Source: Methanolobus psychrophilus R15
GTDB taxonomy: Archaea; Halobacteriota; Methanosarcinia; Methanosarcinales; Methanosarcinaceae
Assembly (NCBI GenBank): GCA_000306725.1
Contig: CP003083.1
Coordinates: 2,964,042 to 3,028,041 of the forward strand
Length of the DNA stretch: 64,000 nt
Direction: 5' to 3'
The notes under the pieces were generated by a model that saw only the letters and a list, made by a program, of their open reading frames with translations, did not search any database and was not told where the DNA came from. Made by a program: the position numbers and the translations under genes. Of the stretch, positions 14,873-24,589 are shown piece after piece. Position 1 is the stretch's first letter; each line of letters begins with the position of its first letter.

Positions 14873-15379
14873 TTATATAACGTTAATGGTTCCTTTCATC
14901 CTTTCTTCATAACCCTGTATCTTGTATGTATATGTACCGGTCTCGTTGAAAGTATGTACATACCTTCCTCTGTATCCTATGGTCTGGTCCTCCCACAACT
15001 CTTCATTGCTTATGAGCACAAAGTTCCTTGTAGGACTGTTAAAATTGATCCAAACAACCGAATCGCCAGAGTTTATAGTCAGGTTCGCTGGCAGAGCGAG
15101 GAAATTCTCCAGGCGCACAGTATATGTGCTGGGGTCTGTTGACGGGACAACAGTGACTCCGCTGCCGGTCCCAGTTGCAGGTGTTCCATTGTCAACAACC
15201 GGAGTCTCCTCATCTGCAGGTGTTTCGTTATCAACTGCAGGAGTCTCCTCATCTATCATTTCGTTTTGTTCTCCCTCTGAGATGTTTTCGTCCGTGTCGT
15301 CCAGATCATTATCTGACACGCAGCCGGTAACAAGAAGAGAGAATAATATCATTAGTATAGCAATCCATTTCAGATTCAT
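14873..15379 (-). CDS. Lipoprotein with a cupredoxin-like domain lacking copper ligands
   Basis: 168 residues. A signal peptide with a lipobox (LLVTGC, Cys20) is followed by an acidic Thr/Pro/Glu-rich spacer (about 22-75) with repeated 'TP(A/V)(V/D)(D/N)' units. A cupredoxin fold follows (about 85-168; [20 protein letters not shown] and [18 protein letters not shown]). In amicyanin-type proteins the last loop is YHC-x-x-H-x-x-M. Here the equivalent is YKI-x-x-Y-x-x-x-M, and the first His is also replaced, so type-1 copper binding is unlikely. Exported and membrane-tethered; role unknown. Confidence 0.8.
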
Positions 15380-15436
15380 GACATCACCTCAATTAAATAG
15401 GGTTTTGAGAGTATAATAGTTTCCTATTGTTTCCTT

Positions 15437-16096
15437 TCAGGCCTTTATGAGCATGGCATTGATCTTTGTTCCATCCGTGGGATCATCTGGATCATTTATA
15501 TGAATAAGGGCTGCAAAACCTGCTGCAGCCATTCCGGGGTTGACGACAATGGTCCCGTCATGCTCCTCGACACCTCTTGCCTCATGGATATGCCCGCAGA
15601 CCACCAGGCTGACCTTTCCTAGGTACTTTGCCAGCGGTCTGCATCCAACATGTGTATCCCTGACAGCATCCAGTACGCCATAAGGAGGGGCATGGGTAAG
15701 AAGCACTATTGGCTGTTTGTATTCCTGAGCATCCGACATGAGCTTTTCAAGTTTCTCCCCGATGTCACATTCTTCTATCTCAAAAGGTGTGCAAAAAGGT
15801 GTAGGGTTTGATCCGCCAAACCCCACAAAAGTGATCCCTCCGAAGGTTTCCAGCTTATTATGAAGGCTGACAGAGGAGTTATCAAGGATTTCCATAGTTG
15901 ACAGCGGGTCACAGTTCCCGGGTACAGCCATAACTTTCTGACTGAACATGCCAATGAGTTCTAATGCCTTTTCAGAGGGGCCGAAATTGGTGATGTCCCC
16001 TGCGATGAGCACTGCATCCACATTGCCTGCCTTTTCAAGCAAGTCTTTGATAAAGGAGTAATTCCCATGGGGGTCTGCTATTGCGAATATTCTCAT
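15437..16096 (-). CDS. Calcineurin-like metallophosphoesterase
   Basis: 220 residues starting at the ATG at 16096 (MRIFAIADPHGN). The longer open frame to 16180 only overlaps the upstream gene. All metallophosphoesterase motifs are present: D-x-H (ADPHGN), GD (IAGDITNFG), GN-D (VPGNCD, Cys replacing the usual His), the histidine strand (LLTHAPPYG) and GHxH (VCGHIHEARG). It binds two metal ions and probably hydrolyses a phosphodiester; substrate unknown. It lies 31 bases downstream of the AIM24-type gene and probably shares its transcript. Confidence 0.87.
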   Translation of the reverse strand: MRIFAIADPHGNYSFIKDLLEKAGNVDAVLIAGDITNFGPSEKALELIGMFSQKVMAVPGNCDPLSTMEILDNSSVSLHNKLETFGGITFVGFGGSNPTPFCTPFEIEECDIGEKLEKLMSDAQEYKQPIVLLTHAPPYGVLDAVRDTHVGCRPLAKYLGKVSLVVCGHIHEARGVEEHDGTIVVNPGMAAAGFAALIHINDPDDPTDGTKINAMLIKA

Positions 16097-16127
16097 GTCA
16101 ATCTGCTTCTTTATGTCAGTTTGTCTC

Positions 16128-16880
16128 TTAGAAAGACCTGTCGCCTCCAATGAGCCCTCCCAATCCTCCCCTAGACTCATCCCTGCGCTGATAAGATGCT
16201 GCAGCCATTATCCTGTCCGCAAGACGTGAGAACGGCAGGCTCTGCAGATATACAGTGCCAGGACCTTTCAATGTAGCAAGCACAAGCCCTTCTCCACCGA
16301 ACAGGGCATTCTTGAAACCGCCTACCAATTGAATATTGTAATCTACTTTTTCGGAGAACGCAACGATACATCCTGTATCGACCCTTATTACTTCTCCTGC
16401 CTGAAGGTCTTTCTTAATGATCGTGCCTCCTGCATGAACAAAGGCCAGCCCGTCACCGGTCAGTCTCTGCAGGATAAAACCCTCTCCTCCGAAAAGGCCC
16501 GCACCTATCTTTTTAGTAAGGGCTACTTCAATCTCTATACCTTTTGCCGCGCACAGGAAAGAGTCCTTCTGGCACAGGAAGCGTCCACCCACTTCTTTCA
16601 GGTCAAGGGGTATTATTTTTCCCGGGTAGGGTGCCCCGAAAGCCACATATCCTTTTCCTGTTCCTTCGTGGACATAACTGGTAATAAAGAAACTTTCACC
16701 TGTGAGTGTGCGTTTCAACCCCTTGAGCAGCCCTCCGCCGGTGGATGTTTCCATTTTGATCCCGGGCCCCATGTACATCATAGCGCCTGCTTCGGCTCTT
16801 ACAGACTCGCCGGGATCGAGCTCGATCTCAACTAGCTGCATATCATTTCCGATAATCTGGTAATCAATCTCATCTGCCAT
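16128..16880 (-). CDS. AIM24 / TIGR00266 family protein
   Basis: 250 residues of the AIM24-like beta-sandwich family. Visible repeats are the pseudo-symmetric glycine-rich strands GGGLLKGLKRTLTGES, FGGEGFILQRLTGDG and FGGEGLVLATLKGPGTV, ending in a Gly/Arg/Ser-rich tail (GGLGGLIGG). In yeast the namesake is a mitochondrial inner-membrane organiser. In prokaryotes no reaction is established and the proteins are usually cytosolic. No signal peptide here. First gene of a likely two-gene operon with the phosphoesterase. Confidence 0.85.
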   Translation of the reverse strand: MADEIDYQIIGNDMQLVEIELDPGESVRAEAGAMMYMGPGIKMETSTGGGLLKGLKRTLTGESFFITSYVHEGTGKGYVAFGAPYPGKIIPLDLKEVGGRFLCQKDSFLCAAKGIEIEVALTKKIGAGLFGGEGFILQRLTGDGLAFVHAGGTIIKKDLQAGEVIRVDTGCIVAFSEKVDYNIQLVGGFKNALFGGEGLVLATLKGPGTVYLQSLPFSRLADRIMAAASYQRRDESRGGLGGLIGGDRSF

Positions 16881-17062
16881 TTTTGTTCCTCTGTGGGATA
16901 GTTTATCTATTATTAAGTATTCCGGAATTAATCATTCCTAGCTTAGTGAGCCAACTTTATTAATTTATCTGCATTGGCACTGAACTCTACCCGGAAAATC
17001 CTCTTTGTCAATACAGGCAATACATAACATTTGGTGAAGTGCGCAACTGAACTTGAATACCT

Positions 17063-17102
17063 TAATATATGTCCTGTGCCTAAACAGTTGTTGATTATTG
17101 TG
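17063..17102 (+). promoter_or_regulatory. TATA box and GTG start of the cob operon
   Basis: CTTAATATATG at about 17061-17071 is a TATA-like element roughly 30 bases before the GTG at 17100. No ribosome site precedes that GTG, in keeping with a leaderless mRNA. The next CobD copy has the same arrangement (TATTTATAAAA, GTG at 18668), and from these GTGs both proteins are exactly 497 residues, which decides the starts. Confidence 0.55.
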
Positions 17103-18593
17103 TCTGAAGATGAAAACCAGCTTCCGTTTAAACACTATCCACTGGGTTTATCTGCCTGCAAGCACGGTGGGCAGTTAGGTCAGGTTTCCGAAGAAGCAAA
17201 AATCCCGGAATCAGATATTCTTGATTTCAGCGCGAGCCTGAACCCTCTTGGAAGTCCGTTCAGATCTAAAGAAAGCGGCCTTGATATTGAAGCTCTTCTA
17301 GAAAAGGCAATCGGCAAGCTGGAACAATATCCGGATAACAGGTATATCGAATTAAGGACCGCAGCCTCCCGTTTTGCAGGGAGCGGGGTAGAGCCGGACA
17401 ATATAGTACCCGGTAACGGTTCATGTGAACTGCTCAGGCTTATACTTGAATCTGTTGTCGATGAAGGTGACATGGTCATAGTTCCTATGCCCTGCCCTGC
17501 CGAATACTACCGAACCTGCGAAGCTCTCGGTGCTGTGCCTCACAAGATCAAACTGAACGAAATACTCCAACTGCCCAAGAGGACACTTGAAAGGGCAAAG
17601 GCAGTCTTCTTCTCAAATCCCAACAATCCTTCAGGTGACCTGGTATCCCGCGAAAGGATACGTGAGTTTGCCATAAGGTGTGCTGAGCAGGACACCTTGC
17701 TTGTAGTGGACGAGTCTTTTATAGAATTATCCGACCCGTCCCAGAGTGTTGCAGATCTTGCTGCAAAGAGAGATTATCTTTTTGTGACCCGCTCGATAGT
17801 GAATGCCTTTTCCCTGCCGGGCATCAGGTTCTCCTACGGCATCACTTCTTTGGCTATGGCTGCAAGGCTGAATGCCGCACGACTTTCCTGGAACATAGGT
17901 TCAATAACTGAGGAGATTGCCACTGCTGTTCTTAGTATGGAAGGAGGTGTGAACAGCAGTTACCTGGTTAACTCCCGCAGGTTCATCAGGGAGGAAAGGC
18001 AGTACCTAATCGAGCGCCTGTCTTCATTATATGGTTTCAATCCTCTCAAAAGCAATGCCAACTTCGTTCTGGTGGATATGAAAGAGCATTTTATGGATTC
18101 GGAGCATTTTACAAATTGCTTCGCATCCCGCGGAATCTTTTTCCGGGAGTGCAGTGATTTCTTTGAAGGGCAAAAGCACTTTATCCGCATATCAGTGCGC
18201 TCAAGAGATGACTTTGAGAAATTAATATCCCGGTTGGATGATGTCTACGCAGAGTTTAGCAGGGAAGAAGCCAGGGAAAAACTAGTGGAAACCCTTGAGC
18301 AAGGTCTTGAGAGGGTTGCAGCAACCCGTGGCACATGTGGATACTACCCGTGCCATTTTCTCGGCCAGGACTGCACTTTCTGTTTCTGTCCTTTCTATGC
18401 CTGTAGCGATGAGAGAACAGGCGGGAAATGGATAGATAGTGCTATTGGCGGCAAGGTGTGGAGCTGTGAGCATTGTACACTGCTGCACCAGCCGAAAGTG
18501 GCAGAGAAGATACTGGATGTCCTTATGGAGGATGAGGATACGGATGAGAATATCCGTAAAGCATGGATCGAGGTTATCCTGCCTCTATTGTGA
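17100..18593 (+). CDS. CobD paralogue lacking the PLP lysine (probable pseudo-decarboxylase)
   Basis: 497 residues from the GTG at 17100. It aligns along its full length with the CobD that follows, including NPNNPSG, the DESFIEL aspartate and the Cys-rich tail (about 415-470: YYPCHFLGQDCTFCFCPFY ... WSCEHC). At the Schiff-base position the paralogue has SLTK235AFAIPG. This copy has SIVN235AFSLPG, and the following RMGFG phosphate/Arg loop is RFSYG. Without the lysine, PLP chemistry should fail. Since the M. mazei CobD is a reported bifunctional Thr kinase/Thr-P decarboxylase, this copy may retain a kinase, regulatory or subunit role. First gene of the cob operon. Confidence 0.85.
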   Translation: MSEDENQLPFKHYPLGLSACKHGGQLGQVSEEAKIPESDILDFSASLNPLGSPFRSKESGLDIEALLEKAIGKLEQYPDNRYIELRTAASRFAGSGVEPDNIVPGNGSCELLRLILESVVDEGDMVIVPMPCPAEYYRTCEALGAVPHKIKLNEILQLPKRTLERAKAVFFSNPNNPSGDLVSRERIREFAIRCAEQDTLLVVDESFIELSDPSQSVADLAAKRDYLFVTRSIVNAFSLPGIRFSYGITSLAMAARLNAARLSWNIGSITEEIATAVLSMEGGVNSSYLVNSRRFIREERQYLIERLSSLYGFNPLKSNANFVLVDMKEHFMDSEHFTNCFASRGIFFRECSDFFEGQKHFIRISVRSRDDFEKLISRLDDVYAEFSREEAREKLVETLEQGLERVAATRGTCGYYPCHFLGQDCTFCFCPFYACSDERTGGKWIDSAIGGKVWSCEHCTLLHQPKVAEKILDVLMEDEDTDENIRKAWIEVILPLL

Positions 18594-18638
18594 CCGAAAA
18601 GTGTCTTGATGGAATCATTATATCAAAAAAACGAATAT

Positions 18639-18670
18639 ATATTTATAAAATAGAGTTTGTGATCATCGTG
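18639..18670 (+). promoter_or_regulatory. Internal TATA box and leaderless GTG start of cobD
   Basis: ATATTTATAAAA (18639-18650) lies about 25 bases before the GTG at 18668, the spacing expected for transcription starting at the start codon. It suggests a second promoter inside the cob cluster, driving the intact cobD and the downstream genes separately from the pseudo-copy. Confidence 0.55.
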
Positions 18671-20161
18671 ACAGAAAATACGCCCTCTCTCCCGGTAAAA
18701 GAGCATCTGTTAAAATTCGAGCCCAGTACTCATGGTGGATTGATACGTAAAAACTCCCAGAAATACGCAATTCCGGAGAGCGAGATCCTTGATGCGAGCG
18801 CAAGCCTGAATCCCTTTGGGACTCCCTTTGAGTATCCCTATACAGGCCTGGTGCTTCGTACGTTACTTGACAGGGGGCTTCAGAAAATGGAGCAGTACCC
18901 CGACAACCGCTATCTGGAATTCAAGGAGGCTGCGGCAAAGTTCACAGGCATGGGCATCCGGCCTGAGAACATAATCCCCGGCAATGGTTCTACCGAGATA
19001 ATCCGGCTTGTCGCGGAATGCGTTGTAGGAAAAGGCGACATCGTACTGATCCCGCAGCCGACCTTCAGCGAGTACGAAGTCCAGTGCAGGGTGCTTGGTG
19101 CGACTATAAAGTACATCCGCCAGGAAGACCTTCCGGATATTAGTGGTGATGTCCTTGAAGAAGCAAAGATGATCTTTGTGTGTAATCCTAACAATCCCAC
19201 AGGAAAACTCCTTAACCGCGAGCAGGTAAGAGAACTTGCTCAAAAATGCGCCCGTCACCACACTATTCTTTTCCTCGATGAGGCTTTCATAGAACTTGCC
19301 GACCCATCACAGGGTGCCGCAGATATGGTCGAAGGTAATGAGTATTTTTTCATACAGCGCTCCCTCACAAAGGCTTTCGCTATCCCGGGTATCAGGATGG
19401 GTTTTGGTATCGCATCCAGCAGGTTTGCAAAGGTGCTTGATAACGCAAGGCTTTCCTGGAACCTGGGCTGCATAGCTGATACTGTTTCAACGGCTCTGCT
19501 CAATATGGAAGGCGGGATAAACAGCAAATATCTGAAGGATTCCAGGGATTTCATTAAGGCCGAAAGGGAATACCTTATGGAAAAACTGGATCGCCGTGGG
19601 TTCAAGCCAATCGAGAGCACAGTAAATTACATTTATGTGGATATCTCCGAATTTTCCATGGATTCTACCGAACTGACAGAGCGTATGGCTGCACATGGTG
19701 TGCTCATCCGGGATTGCAGCTCATTTCAGGAGTCGGGCAAAGACCACATCAGGGTCGCTGTCAGGACCAGGGAGGAGAACAAGCGCATAGTGGACACTGT
19801 AAGGCAGGTGATATCGGAATGGGGAAGTGAGCAGGCAGAATCCATGCTTCACGATAACCTTGCAAAAGCCGCGACCTGTGGAAGGCTTGGCAGCAATCTG
19901 AGCTGTGATTATTATCCCTGCCACTTCGAGGGCCAGGACTGCACTTTCTGCTTCTGTCCATTCTACCCGTGTAATGATGAGCGCACCGGTGGCCAGTGGA
20001 TAGAGAGCTCAGGAGGCGGGAAGGTATGGAGCTGCCTCTATTGTGAAATGGTCCACAGACCCGAAGTGGTCGATGATATGCTTTCTGTCCTGACAAAGGA
20101 AGGTTGCAATAAGGAAAGCGTAAAGGAAGCCTGGAAAAAAGCCATGGAGATCCGTTTATGA
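18668..20161 (+). CDS. cobD: L-threonine-O-3-phosphate decarboxylase with Cys-rich C-terminal domain
   Basis: 497 residues. The N-terminal ~385 residues are a fold-type I PLP enzyme of the HisC/CobD group with NPNNPTG, DEAFIEL, the PLP lysine K235 (SLTKAFAIPGIRMGFG) and the C-terminal substrate Arg region (IRVAVRTREE). The tail (about 410-475) carries eight or more Cys (YYPCHF, DCTFCFCPFYPC, WSCLYC), a putative metal site. It makes (R)-1-aminopropan-2-ol O-phosphate for the nucleotide loop of cobamides. The homologue from Methanosarcina mazei (MM2060) is reported to be also an L-Thr kinase. Its stop overlaps the cbiB start (ATGA). The longer frame to 18563 overlaps the upstream gene and is not favoured. 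Confidence 0.9.
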   Translation: MTENTPSLPVKEHLLKFEPSTHGGLIRKNSQKYAIPESEILDASASLNPFGTPFEYPYTGLVLRTLLDRGLQKMEQYPDNRYLEFKEAAAKFTGMGIRPENIIPGNGSTEIIRLVAECVVGKGDIVLIPQPTFSEYEVQCRVLGATIKYIRQEDLPDISGDVLEEAKMIFVCNPNNPTGKLLNREQVRELAQKCARHHTILFLDEAFIELADPSQGAADMVEGNEYFFIQRSLTKAFAIPGIRMGFGIASSRFAKVLDNARLSWNLGCIADTVSTALLNMEGGINSKYLKDSRDFIKAEREYLMEKLDRRGFKPIESTVNYIYVDISEFSMDSTELTERMAAHGVLIRDCSSFQESGKDHIRVAVRTREENKRIVDTVRQVISEWGSEQAESMLHDNLAKAATCGRLGSNLSCDYYPCHFEGQDCTFCFCPFYPCNDERTGGQWIESSGGGKVWSCLYCEMVHRPEVVDDMLSVLTKEGCNKESVKEAWKKAMEIRL

Positions 20162-21144
20162 TCATGCCTGTGATGCCGGGGGCAGAGGATCTCATAATCA
20201 TCCTTTTCCTGGCCTATGCCTATGATCTTATGCTCAACGAGCCTCCTTCTGCCGTTCATCCCGTGGTCTGGATTGGGAAGCTCATTTCCAGGCTTAAGGA
20301 TGCAGCTCCTGCAAAGCACAGGAAACTGTACGGCATATTCCTTGCTCTGGTCACTATTGGCTTTGCATCTGCCCTGGCATATGCAGTGATGCTTGTCCTG
20401 AGCGTCGAATCAATACCGCGGGTCCTGCGTTTGCTGGTGGCTGCGTATTTCCTTAAGGCGACCTTTGCTGTCAGGTGCCTGTTCGAGGCAGGCAACAAGG
20501 TACGCAGCAGGCTTGAGGCAGGTAAGCTTGATGAAGCACGCCGGGAAGTATCCATGTATGTTAGCAGGGACACCTCCCGGCTGGATGAGAACCATGTGTC
20601 TTCCGCTATAATCGAGACAAGCTCCGAGAACTATGTGGATGGGATACTAAGCCCTCTGATGTTCTATTCGTTCTTCGGTCCATTCGGACTTGTCGCTGCT
20701 TACGTCTTCAAGGCTGCCAGCACCCTGGACTCCATGGTCGGTTACAAGAACGAAAAGTACCTGAAGCTGGGCTGGTTCTCTGCAAGGACTGATGACGTGT
20801 TCAACTGGATACCTGCACGCATCTCGGTCATTTTCATCTGTATAGCGGCTGTGGTCGTGAACTTGTTTTCAGGAAACAGGAAAAAGCTGAGTGCATCGGA
20901 TGCACTCAAACTCGGGCTGGCAGAGGGACTGATGACCCCTTCCCCGAATTCCGGGTTTCCCATGGCTTCCACAGCAGGCGCTCTCAGGGTGAAGCTTGAG
21001 AAACCGAACACCTATCTTCTGGGGGGACGATATAAGTCGTATCCCGTGGCAGAGGATATATGGCTTACCTCAAGGCTTATACTGACCGCTTCGTTTATGG
21101 CGGTTGGCGCATCTGCATTGATGATCTATTTTATCCTTGGATGA
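20158..21144 (+). CDS. cbiB: Adenosylcobinamide-phosphate synthase
   Basis: 328 residues, polytopic membrane protein of the CbiB/CobD-Pseudomonas family. Visible marks are the N-terminal DLMLNEPPSAVHPVVWIGK, the SRDTSRLDENHVSSAIIET cytosolic stretch, SENYVDGILSPLMFY, the STLDSMVGYKNEKY segment and the late TPSPNSGFPMASTAGAL. It joins aminopropanol phosphate to adenosylcobyric acid in the membrane. Its ATG overlaps the cobD stop by four bases, implying translational coupling with the enzyme that makes its substrate. Immediately followed by cobZ. Confidence 0.95.
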   Translation: MIMPVMPGAEDLIIILFLAYAYDLMLNEPPSAVHPVVWIGKLISRLKDAAPAKHRKLYGIFLALVTIGFASALAYAVMLVLSVESIPRVLRLLVAAYFLKATFAVRCLFEAGNKVRSRLEAGKLDEARREVSMYVSRDTSRLDENHVSSAIIETSSENYVDGILSPLMFYSFFGPFGLVAAYVFKAASTLDSMVGYKNEKYLKLGWFSARTDDVFNWIPARISVIFICIAAVVVNLFSGNRKKLSASDALKLGLAEGLMTPSPNSGFPMASTAGALRVKLEKPNTYLLGGRYKSYPVAEDIWLTSRLILTASFMAVGASALMIYFILG

Positions 21145-21167
21145 GTTGGCAGGTACATAAATAACAA

Positions 21168-21782
21168 ATGATAAAAGTGATGGCAATGAAATTATCGGAC
21201 ATAGAATCAAAGAACCTCAAGGAAGGACAGCCTGAGGAACTGGAAGGCGATATCACCCATGATATCATTGATATACTCAGGGATGAGGGTATTACCGTTG
21301 AGATGCTTGTTGATACTGCGCTGGCACTGTATGCTCCGCATCCGGGTATCGAGACCAGGGAGCTTGCTGAGGAAAGGTTCCTGGAAGAATTGCACATAGC
21401 CCTTTCAGACCCAAACCTTTGCATGCTTGTCTATGCAGGCGTATTGCTCGAAAAGGAAGGCGTTGCAGGCACTCTTCCGAATATAAGCAAGAGTTCCTAC
21501 GAAAAAGACCTGACATTCCTGATAGTTGACGAGGTCATAGGGATGAGTATTGCCAAGTACATAAGTGGTGATAAGGGCATATTCGAATTTGTACGTTTTG
21601 ACAAGCAGAAACCTGGTATCCTTGCGGATCTCGGCCCTTTCATGGATGATGTGATAGGAGGGCTCATTGGTGGTGTATCTGCCAGCATGTATACACGAAG
21701 CATGGCCGAAGCCGCCAGAAAGGATGCGGCTGAGAAAAAGAAGAGGCATGACAGCAACCCGGGTGGTGTGATCGCAGGATGA
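21168..21782 (+). CDS. cobZ: Alpha-ribazole-5'-phosphate phosphatase, archaeal type
   Basis: 204 residues. The C-terminal ~100 residues resemble phosphatidylglycerophosphatase A (FLIVDEVIGMSIAKYI and LADLGPFMDDVIGGLIGG), and the N-terminal half is a helical extension. This is the layout of CobZ, the archaeal non-orthologous replacement of CobC first shown in Methanosarcina mazei, which removes phosphate in nucleotide-loop assembly. Alternative starts at 21180 or 21186 are possible. Its stop overlaps the cobS start (ATGA). Confidence 0.88.
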   Translation: MIKVMAMKLSDIESKNLKEGQPEELEGDITHDIIDILRDEGITVEMLVDTALALYAPHPGIETRELAEERFLEELHIALSDPNLCMLVYAGVLLEKEGVAGTLPNISKSSYEKDLTFLIVDEVIGMSIAKYISGDKGIFEFVRFDKQKPGILADLGPFMDDVIGGLIGGVSASMYTRSMAEAARKDAAEKKKRHDSNPGGVIAG

Positions 21783-22591
21783 ACAACTTCTTACTGGCTG
21801 TACGCTCCAGTTTTGGTTTCCTTTCCACCATCCCTGTCGGGATAACGATGGAAGGGCTTGACGAGTTCTTCAAGAGGACCTATCTACACATACTTGTAGG
21901 TATTGTGCTTGGTCTTATCATAGGTGCAGTGGCCTTTGGTCTGCAGTCTTTCCTCTCTCCCCAGTTGAGCGCTGTTTTCATTATAGTGTTTGTCTATTAT
22001 ATGACGGGACTTAACCACCTTGATGGCATTGCCGACATGGGGGATGGTCTGACAGCCCACGGTTCCCGCGAGAAGAAACTCAAGGCGCTCAAGGACATGT
22101 CTCTTGGGATTGGAGGAGTGGCCTTTACAGCTCTTGCACTCCTGGCATTCTATGCTGCCATCATATCTCTTCTTACGGGTGAATTCCTGCTCCCTGAAGG
22201 CGTGAGCACTGCAGCGATCATCTTTCTTTCCCTGTTCGTTGCCGAGGTCAGTGCCATGCAGTGCATGCTTACGATTGCAGCATTCGGGAAGTCCATACAT
22301 GAAGGTCTTGGTTCCATCCTGGTAAAGAGCACCACTCTTCCAAAGTACCTGACAGGGTTTGCCATGGGTATTGTTGCCTGCACGCTGGCTTTCTGGTACA
22401 TAGGTCTCCCTCTGGTCGGACCCATAGCTTTTGTTGCATCCATTGCATCAGCCATGGTGCTTATCAATATCAGCAACAGGCACTTTGGTGGTGTCAATGG
22501 CGATATCATCGGTGCTTCCAACGAGGTTGGCAGGACCATTGCGCTGGTAGCCATCTTCCTTGCGCTTAAATACGGTTTTGGAGGTGTCTGA
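21779..22591 (+). CDS. cobS: Adenosylcobinamide-GDP ribazoletransferase (cobalamin synthase)
   Basis: 270 residues, hydrophobic with about six or seven membrane helices. The CobS signature is seen at NHLDGIADMGDGLTAHGSRE (Asp-rich active site), followed by KDMSLGIGG, and near the end NRHFGGVNGDIIGASNEVGR. The enzyme couples adenosylcobinamide-GDP with alpha-ribazole (phosphate) at the membrane. ATGA overlap with cobZ and a single base before cobY show tight coupling within the operon. Confidence 0.95.
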   Translation: MNNFLLAVRSSFGFLSTIPVGITMEGLDEFFKRTYLHILVGIVLGLIIGAVAFGLQSFLSPQLSAVFIIVFVYYMTGLNHLDGIADMGDGLTAHGSREKKLKALKDMSLGIGGVAFTALALLAFYAAIISLLTGEFLLPEGVSTAAIIFLSLFVAEVSAMQCMLTIAAFGKSIHEGLGSILVKSTTLPKYLTGFAMGIVACTLAFWYIGLPLVGPIAFVASIASAMVLINISNRHFGGVNGDIIGASNEVGRTIALVAIFLALKYGFGGV

Positions 22592-22592
22592 T

Positions 22593-23216
22593 ATGGATGC
22601 CATAATCATGGCCGGAGGATTCGGGAGCAGGCTCGGGATGGGTGAAAAGCCAACTGTAGAACTGCTTGGCAGGCCTCTCATCTCCTATGTCATCGATGCC
22701 CTGGAGAGAACGCCAGAAGTCGGGAAGATCCATGTTGCCGTCTCGCCTGCAACGCCTAACACTGGCAGTGTCATCCTTAACCGCTACAATGGCAGGGTGG
22801 GAGTTATAAACACAGGCGGTGGCAACTATGTGGCAGATATGGTCTATGCGGTCCGGGATGCAGGCATAACAGAACCTGTGCTGATCATGATGTCGGACAT
22901 ACCCCTGCTTGATCCGGAGATAATCGGGCATATCATCAGAAAATATGAGACTTGCGGAACGCCTGCGATGTCCGTGTTCTCTCCCATATGGGTGTGCAAA
23001 GGGCTCGGTATCAGGCCGGATACGGTCTTTAACTGGGAAGGCAAGCTTATAGTTCCTGCCGGGGTAAATATCCTGGACGGGAAAGATGTCGAACGCGAGC
23101 AGGCCTATGTCAGCCTTGTGCTGGAAAACGTCGAGCTGGCTCTGAATGTTAATACTGCAGCCGACCTTGAGAAGTGCAAAGAGGTACTGCTGGAAAAAAT
23201 AGCCGGGAAAGAGTAG
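22593..23216 (+). CDS. cobY: GTP:adenosylcobinamide-phosphate guanylyltransferase, archaeal type
   Basis: 207 residues from the ATG at 22593, one base after the cobS stop. The longer open frame only overlaps cobS. Nucleotidyltransferase fold with the loop MDAIIMAGGFGSRLGMGEKP and the metal-binding MMSDIPLLDP. CobY is the archaeal replacement of CobU and transfers GMP to adenosylcobinamide phosphate; it lacks a kinase activity. Last recognisable gene of the cob operon. Confidence 0.93.
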   Translation: MDAIIMAGGFGSRLGMGEKPTVELLGRPLISYVIDALERTPEVGKIHVAVSPATPNTGSVILNRYNGRVGVINTGGGNYVADMVYAVRDAGITEPVLIMMSDIPLLDPEIIGHIIRKYETCGTPAMSVFSPIWVCKGLGIRPDTVFNWEGKLIVPAGVNILDGKDVEREQAYVSLVLENVELALNVNTAADLEKCKEVLLEKIAGKE

Positions 23217-23292
23217 TACCGGACCGGGATGATCTATTGTCGGCCGGATTAGTTCAAAAGGATGTGTTCATATCGATCGCCATATTACTATA

Positions 23293-23637
23293 ATGAACCG
23301 GAGTTATTCTCTGGAAACTCTGATGCTGATCACCGGCAAGCTTAGCCCTGAAACTTCCGTTGAGGTTATCCCTGAGGAGTCACTGATGCTATGTGAAGTG
23401 ATAGAGCATCCTCAAAAACTGCCTTTTTACATTGAGGCCTTCTACAACATGGATATCAAAGAGGTGGATGCTTTTCGTTTTGCGCTCATGAGGATCCAGA
23501 TAGATTCCGACCTGCGGATGAACGAAGACATACAGAAGCATCAGCACCGCAGGTATGTTGCGCGCACCATTGAGAAGTTGCTGTTCTCTGATATCCTTCT
23601 TGAACAGGTTCAGGGCGTTGTGCTTGAAGGCGAGTGA
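23293..23637 (+). CDS. Uncharacterised small protein
   Basis: 114 residues, soluble, acidic, mainly helical. No recognised domain or motif. It follows cobY by 76 bases on the same strand and has an ATG at 23293. It might be the distal gene of the cob transcript or an independent unit. I cannot propose a function. Confidence 0.65.
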   Translation: MNRSYSLETLMLITGKLSPETSVEVIPEESLMLCEVIEHPQKLPFYIEAFYNMDIKEVDAFRFALMRIQIDSDLRMNEDIQKHQHRRYVARTIEKLLFSDILLEQVQGVVLEGE

Positions 23638-23792
23638 TGCCCTGCTTATCGGAAGCCCCTGCAAAGGGTGCAGCGCATACAAATAGATATATGGACCGGT
23701 CCTGTCTTCAGGACCTCAATTCCAATTGATTTATACCCTGTTAATCAAATGTCTATTATCAGATTTGTATCCAGATTATTTTTTTCTAAAGG

Positions 23793-24410
23793 ATGCCTGT
23801 CTGGGTGCAGGATCAATGCGTTGTGGTGTCAGTGGTCGATCAGTTTGTCAGGAAGGTATGTACAGGCAAAAGACAGTCATTAAAAGCCTCAAGGCTGGCT
23901 TTTGGCAGCCTGATGACTAAAAAATGGAGAACGGTCGCAGACCCTGACATAATCAGAATAAACAATGATCTGATGGCTGATGTCCTGAGAATCTATCATG
24001 AGAACTTCACCGGGATAAACGACCGGATGTTCATGATGTACTGCCGTTTTTTTAACGAAACATGCTATGTATTTCTTGACCGGGGCAAGGTTGTGGGGTA
24101 CTGCATCTTTTTCGTGAGACCTGTATTCTCCTATTCGCACATCTACAAAACCGCCACACTTTATTCTTTGGCAGTTGACAGTGATCACAGGGGATATGGT
24201 ATAGGTAAAAGACTGCTTCAGAAAGGTATCCGCGAAATGAAGCTCAATTCCGTCAGCTGCATCTCTCTCTATGTGGCCACCGAGAATATGCCAGCCATCA
24301 GCCTTTACAAAAAGGCGGGTTTCCGTATCCTCGGGGAGCTTGAGGATGTCTGCGGCCCGGGACTCAAATGCTACGAGATGGATTTGGGGCTAGGGCATGA
24401 TTCCCCTTGA
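23793..24410 (+). CDS. GNAT-family N-acetyltransferase, paralogue of 4594-5205
   Basis: 205 residues with a RimI-type domain: acetyl-CoA loop DHRGYGIGKRLLQKG at about 142-156 and MPAISLYKKAGFRI near the end. It aligns with the protein at 4594-5205 from the KRQS segment onwards. The shared EMKLNS and KTATLYS(F/L)(A/T)VD stretches make this a clear paralogue. The homology upstream of the domain supports a start near 23793 rather than the internal Met of GSLMTKKW. A TATA-like TTTATA lies near 23730. Substrate unknown. Confidence 0.78.
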   Translation: MPVWVQDQCVVVSVVDQFVRKVCTGKRQSLKASRLAFGSLMTKKWRTVADPDIIRINNDLMADVLRIYHENFTGINDRMFMMYCRFFNETCYVFLDRGKVVGYCIFFVRPVFSYSHIYKTATLYSLAVDSDHRGYGIGKRLLQKGIREMKLNSVSCISLYVATENMPAISLYKKAGFRILGELEDVCGPGLKCYEMDLGLGHDSP

Positions 24411-24589
24411 GTGGTTCTCTTCTTTTGGCAGGGTGCAGTATTTCCTCAAGATTGGGTTTTATCTTCGGATGAGGATTTCTATAGAGCCGAAAAATGTATA
24501 TTATAAGTTTAGCACATTATTGCTAATAAGGAAGGGTTTACGTTATTGACAAGAGTTTCACTTCCTTAAGGAGGCAGGAGATCAGAAAA

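Follow-up and report, generated by a model that had tools for sequence, protein, structure and literature searches.

Results

A tandem pair of CobD paralogues heads a pathway gene cluster

The window, meaning the whole 64,000-nucleotide stretch of Methanolobus psychrophilus R15 DNA analysed here, is part of a complete 3,072,769-bp chromosome. It carries two CobD genes in tandem, which we call c1 and c2, at the head of a cluster encoding CbiB, a CobZ-like phosphatase, CobS, and a CobY-like nucleotidyltransferase, which act in the steps that consume what CobD makes. The names CobZ and CobY are ones that we take from pathway knowledge. The features are as follows.

16128..16880, minus strand: AIM24-family gene (PF01987), divergent, the conserved left neighbour of c1
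17062..17069, plus strand: TTAATATA box upstream of c1, a putative promoter element
17100..18593, plus strand: c1, lysine-less CobD paralogue with a Cys-rich tail (497 aa, GTG start, from translation)
17325..17345, plus strand: QYPDNRY of c1, residues 76-82, which includes Y77 (invariant in 32/32 c1 proteins)
17802..17804, plus strand: Asn235 codon AAT of c1, at the position of the PLP Schiff-base lysine
18327..18533, plus strand: Cys-rich tail of c1, PF04071, type 1 (R410 and M476 in c2 numbering)
18634..18650, plus strand: A/T-rich stretch before c2, putatively TATA-like
18668..20161, plus strand: c2, lysine-bearing CobD with a Cys-rich tail (497 aa, GTG start, from translation)
19370..19372, plus strand: Lys235 codon AAG of c2, the PLP lysine, equivalent to S. 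enterica K216
19892..20092, plus strand: Cys-rich tail of c2, PF04071, type 2 (N410, T476)
20158..21144, plus strand: CbiB (PF03186), the next step, which attaches aminopropanol phosphate
21168..21782, plus strand: CobZ-like phosphatase with a PgpA domain (PF04608)
21779..22591, plus strand: CobS (PF02654)
22560..23216, plus strand: CobY-like nucleotidyltransferase (PF12804)

The preliminary description had read both copies as 497-residue proteins from GTG starts, with Asn at position 235 in the first and Lys in the second, an altered loop just beyond (RFSYG in c1 versus RMGFG in c2), and a conserved Cys-rich C-terminal domain. Translations from 17100 and 18668, the AAT and AAG codons, and PF04071 matches in both copies bear out each of these points, and all 114 proteins compared have the tail's 8 Cys and 2 His. 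The equal length is incidental, as CobD relatives span about 494-501 aa. c1 and c2 are identical at 231 of 488 residues (47%), and Pfam assigns both a class I/II aminotransferase body (Aminotran_1_2) in addition to the tail. c2 passes the curated CobD model for L-Thr-O-3-P decarboxylase, TIGR01140, at 291.2 bits against a cut-off of 290.55, whereas c1 falls below it at 243 bits. A profile of Lys-type relatives aligns K235 of c2 to K216 of S. enterica CobD (1LC5), the PLP lysine of that enzyme. Judged by sequence, c1 is homologous to CobD yet lacks what defines an L-Thr-P decarboxylase, and very probably is unable to be one.

The AlphaFold2 model of c1 (pLDDT 82.5, the Cys-rich part of the tail being poorly predicted) has its best PDB matches in S. 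enterica CobD (1LC7, 1LKC, 1LC8, and 1LC5; E 6.7e-28, target TM 0.86-0.88, 24% identity) and thus a CobD fold. This closest solved structure differs from c1 in lacking a tail and in having K216, the equivalent of which is missing in c1. For the tail, modelled at pLDDT 75, the searches gave neither a PDB fold match with E <0.001 nor a reliable match by sequence.

c1 apparently has a promoter of its own, because the TTAATATA box precedes it in 27/27 Methanolobus genomes; the exact box also stands before c2 in 16/27. A search for riboswitch control gave no Rfam match at 15000-24500.

c1 loses PLP contacts and keeps other pocket residues

Active-site residues were compared across 114 proteins, among them 76 Lys-type relatives and 32 c1 proteins. 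Invariant in the Lys-type proteins are K235, F133 (ring stacking), N176, A206, R243, and G245. The c2 pocket is complete (K235, F133, N176, D204, S232, R243, and R362), and the full PLP site is kept in c2 and in all single-copy Methanosarcinaceae CobDs. The c1 proteins have lost K235, F133, A206, and G245, and they drift at S108, N176, and F207. Loss of the PLP-stacking F133 (32/32 c1) extends to all lysine-less copies, as does replacement of A206 by Ser or Thr, and residue 235 in these copies is N, R, D, G, H, T, or Y. Of 83 body sites invariant in Lys-type proteins, 32 are kept in every c1.

Two sets of residues persist. D204, E205, R231, S232, and R362 (carboxylate-binding) are retained in 32/32 c1 proteins, as are Y77, R261, and W264, with N265 kept in 27/32. 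In fold-type I dimers the partner subunit contributes contacts to the active site, as with Y70 and R292 of AspAT and Y63 and H279 of KAT I. By homology, c1 Y77 corresponds to S. enterica Y56, expected to reach the PLP phosphate of the partner subunit, and what is generally known of such dimers would place Y77, R261, and W264 in the active site of the partner. The partner residues are lost in two Methanohalophilus lysine-less copies and in third copies.

Lysine-less copies recur in several genera

In each of 27 Methanolobus genomes (that of the window and 26 relatives) and at each of the five Methanomethylovorans loci that were read, a Lys copy is immediately preceded by a lysine-less one (27/27 and 5/5). 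Recurrence next to a Lys-type copy, which the preliminary description had asked about for the Asn-type paralogue, thus holds for the lysine-less copy in every Methanolobus genome, and absence from relatives was not seen. Residue 235 of the first copy is Asn in 24, Arg in one, Asp in one, and Gly in one of the Methanolobus genomes, and His in all five Methanomethylovorans loci, so Asn235 is not a sequencing error; a private mutation is likewise rejected, as the lysine-less copy recurs in two genera. Gene order (AIM24 gene, then c1-c2-cbiB-cobZ-cobS-cobY) is the same in both genera wherever the contig reaches.

Other genera are arranged differently. Methanosarcina, Methanosalsum, and Methanimicrococcus have a single Lys copy, Methanococcoides has two copies that both carry Lys, and beyond the family nearly every genome has one match only. 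In Methanohalophilus, a solitary Lys copy lies ~20 kb from a lysine-less copy (T, T, Y, or D at 235) that precedes cbiB-cobZ-cobS-cobY. Two genomes hold an additional lysine-less copy (L116, L117), and a third copy in Methanomethylovorans lies near CbiZ and BtuC/F-like genes. A more distant genome of the same phylum (G321) encodes a tailed CobD with Asn in place of the lysine (L249), next to genes for Btu-type transporters; neither CbiB nor CbiZ nor a Lys-type CobD was found in it. As this genome lacks CbiB and CbiZ, its gene content shows at least one lysine-less CobD that would work outside aminopropanol-phosphate synthesis. Haloarchaeal CobDs were considered as a parallel case and rejected, since they keep the lysine wherever the motif is readable.

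Both tail types persist whichever copy carries the lysine

Single-copy CobDs have a type 1 tail, with R410 and M476; the type 2 tail has N410 and no M476. All two-copy genomes compared combine a type 1 with a type 2 tail, irrespective of which copy has the lysine, and the lysine is never absent from both copies. In Methanolobus and Methanomethylovorans the type 1 copy is without Lys and the type 2 copy has it. Methanohalophilus is reversed: Lys is in the type 1 copy and missing from the cbiB-linked type 2 copy. Methanococcoides, Methanohalobium, and the genus g3 carry Lys in both. On this comparison of sequences, the dispensable part is the lysine, not the tail.

The Methanohalobium pair has bodies that are 94.6% identical and tails that are 52.8% identical and still of type 1 and type 2, a pattern such as gene conversion of the bodies alone would leave. 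Full-length trees therefore mix histories; on them, a single clade of all type 2-tailed proteins is rejected (AU p 0.0005). In a tail-only tree one branch, weakly supported (75), parts type 1 from type 2. PF04071 also turns up in fusions with CbiZ and with a GDPD-type phosphodiesterase, and by itself next to a CobD that has no tail, so the tail module is not kinase-specific.

c1 is under purifying selection with shifted constraint

Pairwise dN/dS is about 0.08-0.15 for c1 in close pairs (about 0.09-0.2 for its body alone) and 0.04-0.12 for c2. The relaxed selection on copy 1 that would have spoken against the preliminary description was not seen. Over one shared set of 29 genomes, the body of c1 evolves ~1.7x faster than that of c2, and the tail/body rate is 0.35 in c1 versus 0.80 in c2, a ratio of ratios of 0.44 (bootstrap 95% interval 0.29-0.79). 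Constraint on c1 is strongest in the tail, where 23 of 24 sites that are invariant in Lys-type proteins are kept in every c1. Constraint in c1 is shifted relative to c2, and c1 can be taken neither for an error nor for a gene in decay.

On a maximum-likelihood tree of 84 proteins, built with column 235 left out, the Lys state needs three changes, two of them forced by well-supported branches. A single loss, tested by forcing the lysine-less copies to form one clade, is rejected (p-AU 0.004). At least two separate losses of the lysine are indicated, and a total of three or four is probable.

Discussion

Our comparison gives good support to the view that c1 has lost PLP decarboxylation and retained another role, and suggests that the lysine-less copy is a working partner or the keeper of a second activity rather than a decaying spare. 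The preliminary description had offered kinase, substrate-gating, or subunit function for copy 1. Loss of decarboxylation with another role kept stands, and some weight shifts from a division of kinase and decarboxylase between the copies to the subunit reading. The weight moves in this direction because, in different genera, either paralogue can lose the lysine while both tail types stay, and because the residues predicted to face the partner persist even though several PLP contacts decay.

We tentatively propose, as the best of the explanations weighed here, that c1 is a decarboxylase-dead partner subunit working with c2 in a mixed CobD complex. The two would most likely assemble into an oligomer that makes (R)-1-aminopropanol O-2-phosphate for CbiB. 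c2 would supply the only competent PLP lysine, and c1 would provide the partner-facing side of the active site through Y77 and probably the R261/W264 segment. c1 would also add a type 1 tail that is not interchangeable with the type 2 tail of c2, so that one catalytic body would be enough and both tails would be needed. In favour of this reading count the constant pairing in one gene order, the purifying selection and shifted constraint on c1, its fully conserved tail, the reciprocal losses of the lysine, and the distinct tails of the Methanohalobium pair. c1 may in addition bind a ligand of its own, since its own-subunit pocket residues D204, R231, S232, and R362 are kept. A fixed 1:1 ratio of c1 to c2 is probably not enforced, because each upstream region has TATA-like boxes.

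Precedents exist for such an arrangement. In eukaryotic serine palmitoyltransferase, the partner of LCB2 is LCB1, a subunit believed not to bind PLP (PMC5519370), and a trypanosomatid deoxyhypusine synthase is activated 3000-fold by a dead paralogue (PMC3663545). LCB1/LCB2 resembles c1/c2 as a fold-type I pair, and the constancy of a paralogue pair with one lysine-less member in all Methanolobus and Methanomethylovorans cases extends the likeness. Serine palmitoyltransferase is, however, another enzyme with another reaction, and the CobD complex is a predicted one.

Several observations count against the partner model, among them the kept own-subunit pocket residues and the TATA-like boxes in front of each gene. 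The partner-contact argument uses three to four residues placed by homology, whose conservation could reflect folding. The same residues are missing, as noted above, from third copies and from two lysine-less proteins of Methanohalophilus, and the presumed Methanohalophilus partners are not adjacent.

With rather less confidence, we extend the partner model to the methylotrophic methanogens at large, which may share a two-tailed hetero-oligomeric CobD with both tails obligatory and one catalytic body. The two tail types would stem from an old duplication, and PLP chemistry would have been switched off independently in opposite paralogues, depending on the genus, because only one body needs catalysis. 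Some lysine-less CobDs would have passed to corrinoid uptake or salvage.

A division of activities is the main rival, and the less likely of the two. The ancestor would have been bifunctional, with c1 now only an L-Thr kinase, using a PLP-free pocket and the tail, and c2 the decarboxylase. It has to be taken seriously, since M. mazei MM2060 has been reported to be a bifunctional L-Thr kinase/L-Thr-P decarboxylase whose C-terminal metallocentres are needed for optimal activity (Tavares 2018, 2019; 10.1021/acs.biochem.8b00546 and 10.1021/acs.biochem.9b00268, cited in PMC9986279), and since no PduX-like kinase was found in this genome. Its four GHMP proteins are mevalonate, shikimate, and pantoate kinases and beta-RFAP synthase, none of the PduX type. 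The L-threonine kinases PduX and BluE, which would supply the same Thr-P substrate, are GHMP-type and unrelated to the CobD fold. The pocket residues kept in every c1, from D204 to R362, would fit a remaining kinase site, and splitting a bifunctional ancestor also predicts reciprocal loss across genera. However, no site parts a kinase half from a decarboxylase half: six residues are kept in c1 and lost in c2, mostly with conservative changes. In Methanohalophilus, R410/M476 belong to the Lys copy and not to the lysine-less one, the tail module is found on CbiZ, on a phosphodiesterase, or alone, and one lysine-less CobD sits in a genome without CbiB. The two readings are compatible should c1 contribute the kinase to a mixed complex.

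It is more doubtful that c1 serves mainly to carry the Cys-rich, reportedly iron-binding tail, with a part in regulation, in the supply of metal, or in the sensing or salvage of corrinoids, its aminotransferase body being a degenerate platform. The strong constraint on the tail would be expected of such a carrier, as would the G321 protein beside Btu-type transporter genes, the Methanomethylovorans third copy near CbiZ and BtuC/F-like genes, and the other contexts of PF04071. Set against these are the low dN/dS of the c1 body and its 32 retained Lys-type-invariant sites, more than a carrier needs.

ColD-type sugar dehydratases carry out PLP/PMP chemistry with a His and no Schiff-base lysine. 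We consider it very unlikely that c1 does lysine-free PLP/PMP chemistry on another substrate. The His of all five Methanomethylovorans copies and the retained D204 and S232 would suit it, but residue 235 varies widely and F133 is lost throughout, so no common catalytic residue has been selected. A functionless, decaying duplicate is scarcely credible: the faster c1 body and a Methanolobus MAG (G050) without an in-frame c1 N-terminus are outweighed by dN/dS far below 1, by presence in all 32 genomes or loci of two genera with the tail intact in each, and by the conserved upstream box, and with neither relaxed selection nor absence in relatives a pseudogene is rejected.

The CobD fold, the pathway, and the tail are already known. 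M. mazei MM2060 has the same Aminotran_1_2 plus PF04071 architecture and operon partners as c1 and c2, whereas Methanosarcina CobD, unlike the window, is a single copy whose type 1 tail goes with the lysine. In the open literature searched, which comprised neither of the two key MM2060 papers, we found no earlier report of a conserved lysine-less CobD paralogue. The pair bears on archaeal threonine phosphate synthesis and on the role of the iron-rich CobD tail. If the partner model is true, a prokaryotic cofactor-pathway case would join the few known "dead partner" PLP enzymes. Natural pairs from which one activity was removed repeatedly, in opposite directions, amount to ready-made separation-of-function mutants. 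Annotation calls for caution too, as c1 will be called a decarboxylase, very probably wrongly.

Lysine-less CobD proteins in other genomes

The complete 1.5-Mb genome G321 encodes a tailed CobD with Asn in place of the lysine (L249, 4767-6131), adjoining Btu-type transporter genes. CbiB, CbiZ, and a CobD retaining the lysine are all absent from this genome, and the role of its lysine-less CobD must lie outside aminopropanol phosphate synthesis. Very diverged, lysine-less third CobD copies are found in two genomes: in one Methanomethylovorans (L230, 7441-8886) the copy has CbiZ and BtuC/F-like genes nearby, and in Methanolobus vulcani B1d (L229, 8660-10168) it adjoins an RNase HII-like gene.

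Evolution of CobD pairs and their tails

The Methanohalobium CobD pair (L079, L080) is 94.6% identical in the aminotransferase bodies but only 52.8% in the Cys-rich tails, which suggests gene conversion ending at the tail. In Methanococcoides (L065-L069, L095), a second CobY-like gene lies between the two CobD copies, and a cobD-cobY unit may therefore have been duplicated.

The tail module, PF04071, also occurs outside CobD. Several other archaea of the phylum carry it fused to a CbiZ-like protein (adenosylcobinamide amidohydrolase; partner named from sequence), and in family f7 its fusion partner is a glycerophosphodiester phosphodiesterase-like protein.

PF04071 fusions outside CobD
L236 826-1755, CbiZ-like
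L239 1465-2373, CbiZ-like
L244 4805-5803, CbiZ-like
L247 5326-6213, CbiZ-like
L240 6142-7164, glycerophosphodiester phosphodiesterase-like (f7)
L248 1520-2437, glycerophosphodiester phosphodiesterase-like (f7)

At L241 (5372-5608), PF04071 stands alone as a 78-aa protein directly adjoining a tail-less cobD on one side and cbiB on the other, which argues that the CobD tail can act in trans.

Start and upstream neighbour of the first CobD copy

In one Methanolobus MAG (G050), the opening codons of the first CobD copy are out of frame near an A7 run, with in-frame TGA and TAG (L057, 6112-6145), reflecting either an assembly error or a real N-terminal change. The divergent neighbour of the lysine-less paralogue in the window is conserved across Methanolobus and Methanomethylovorans:
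16128-16880, (-), AIM24-family gene
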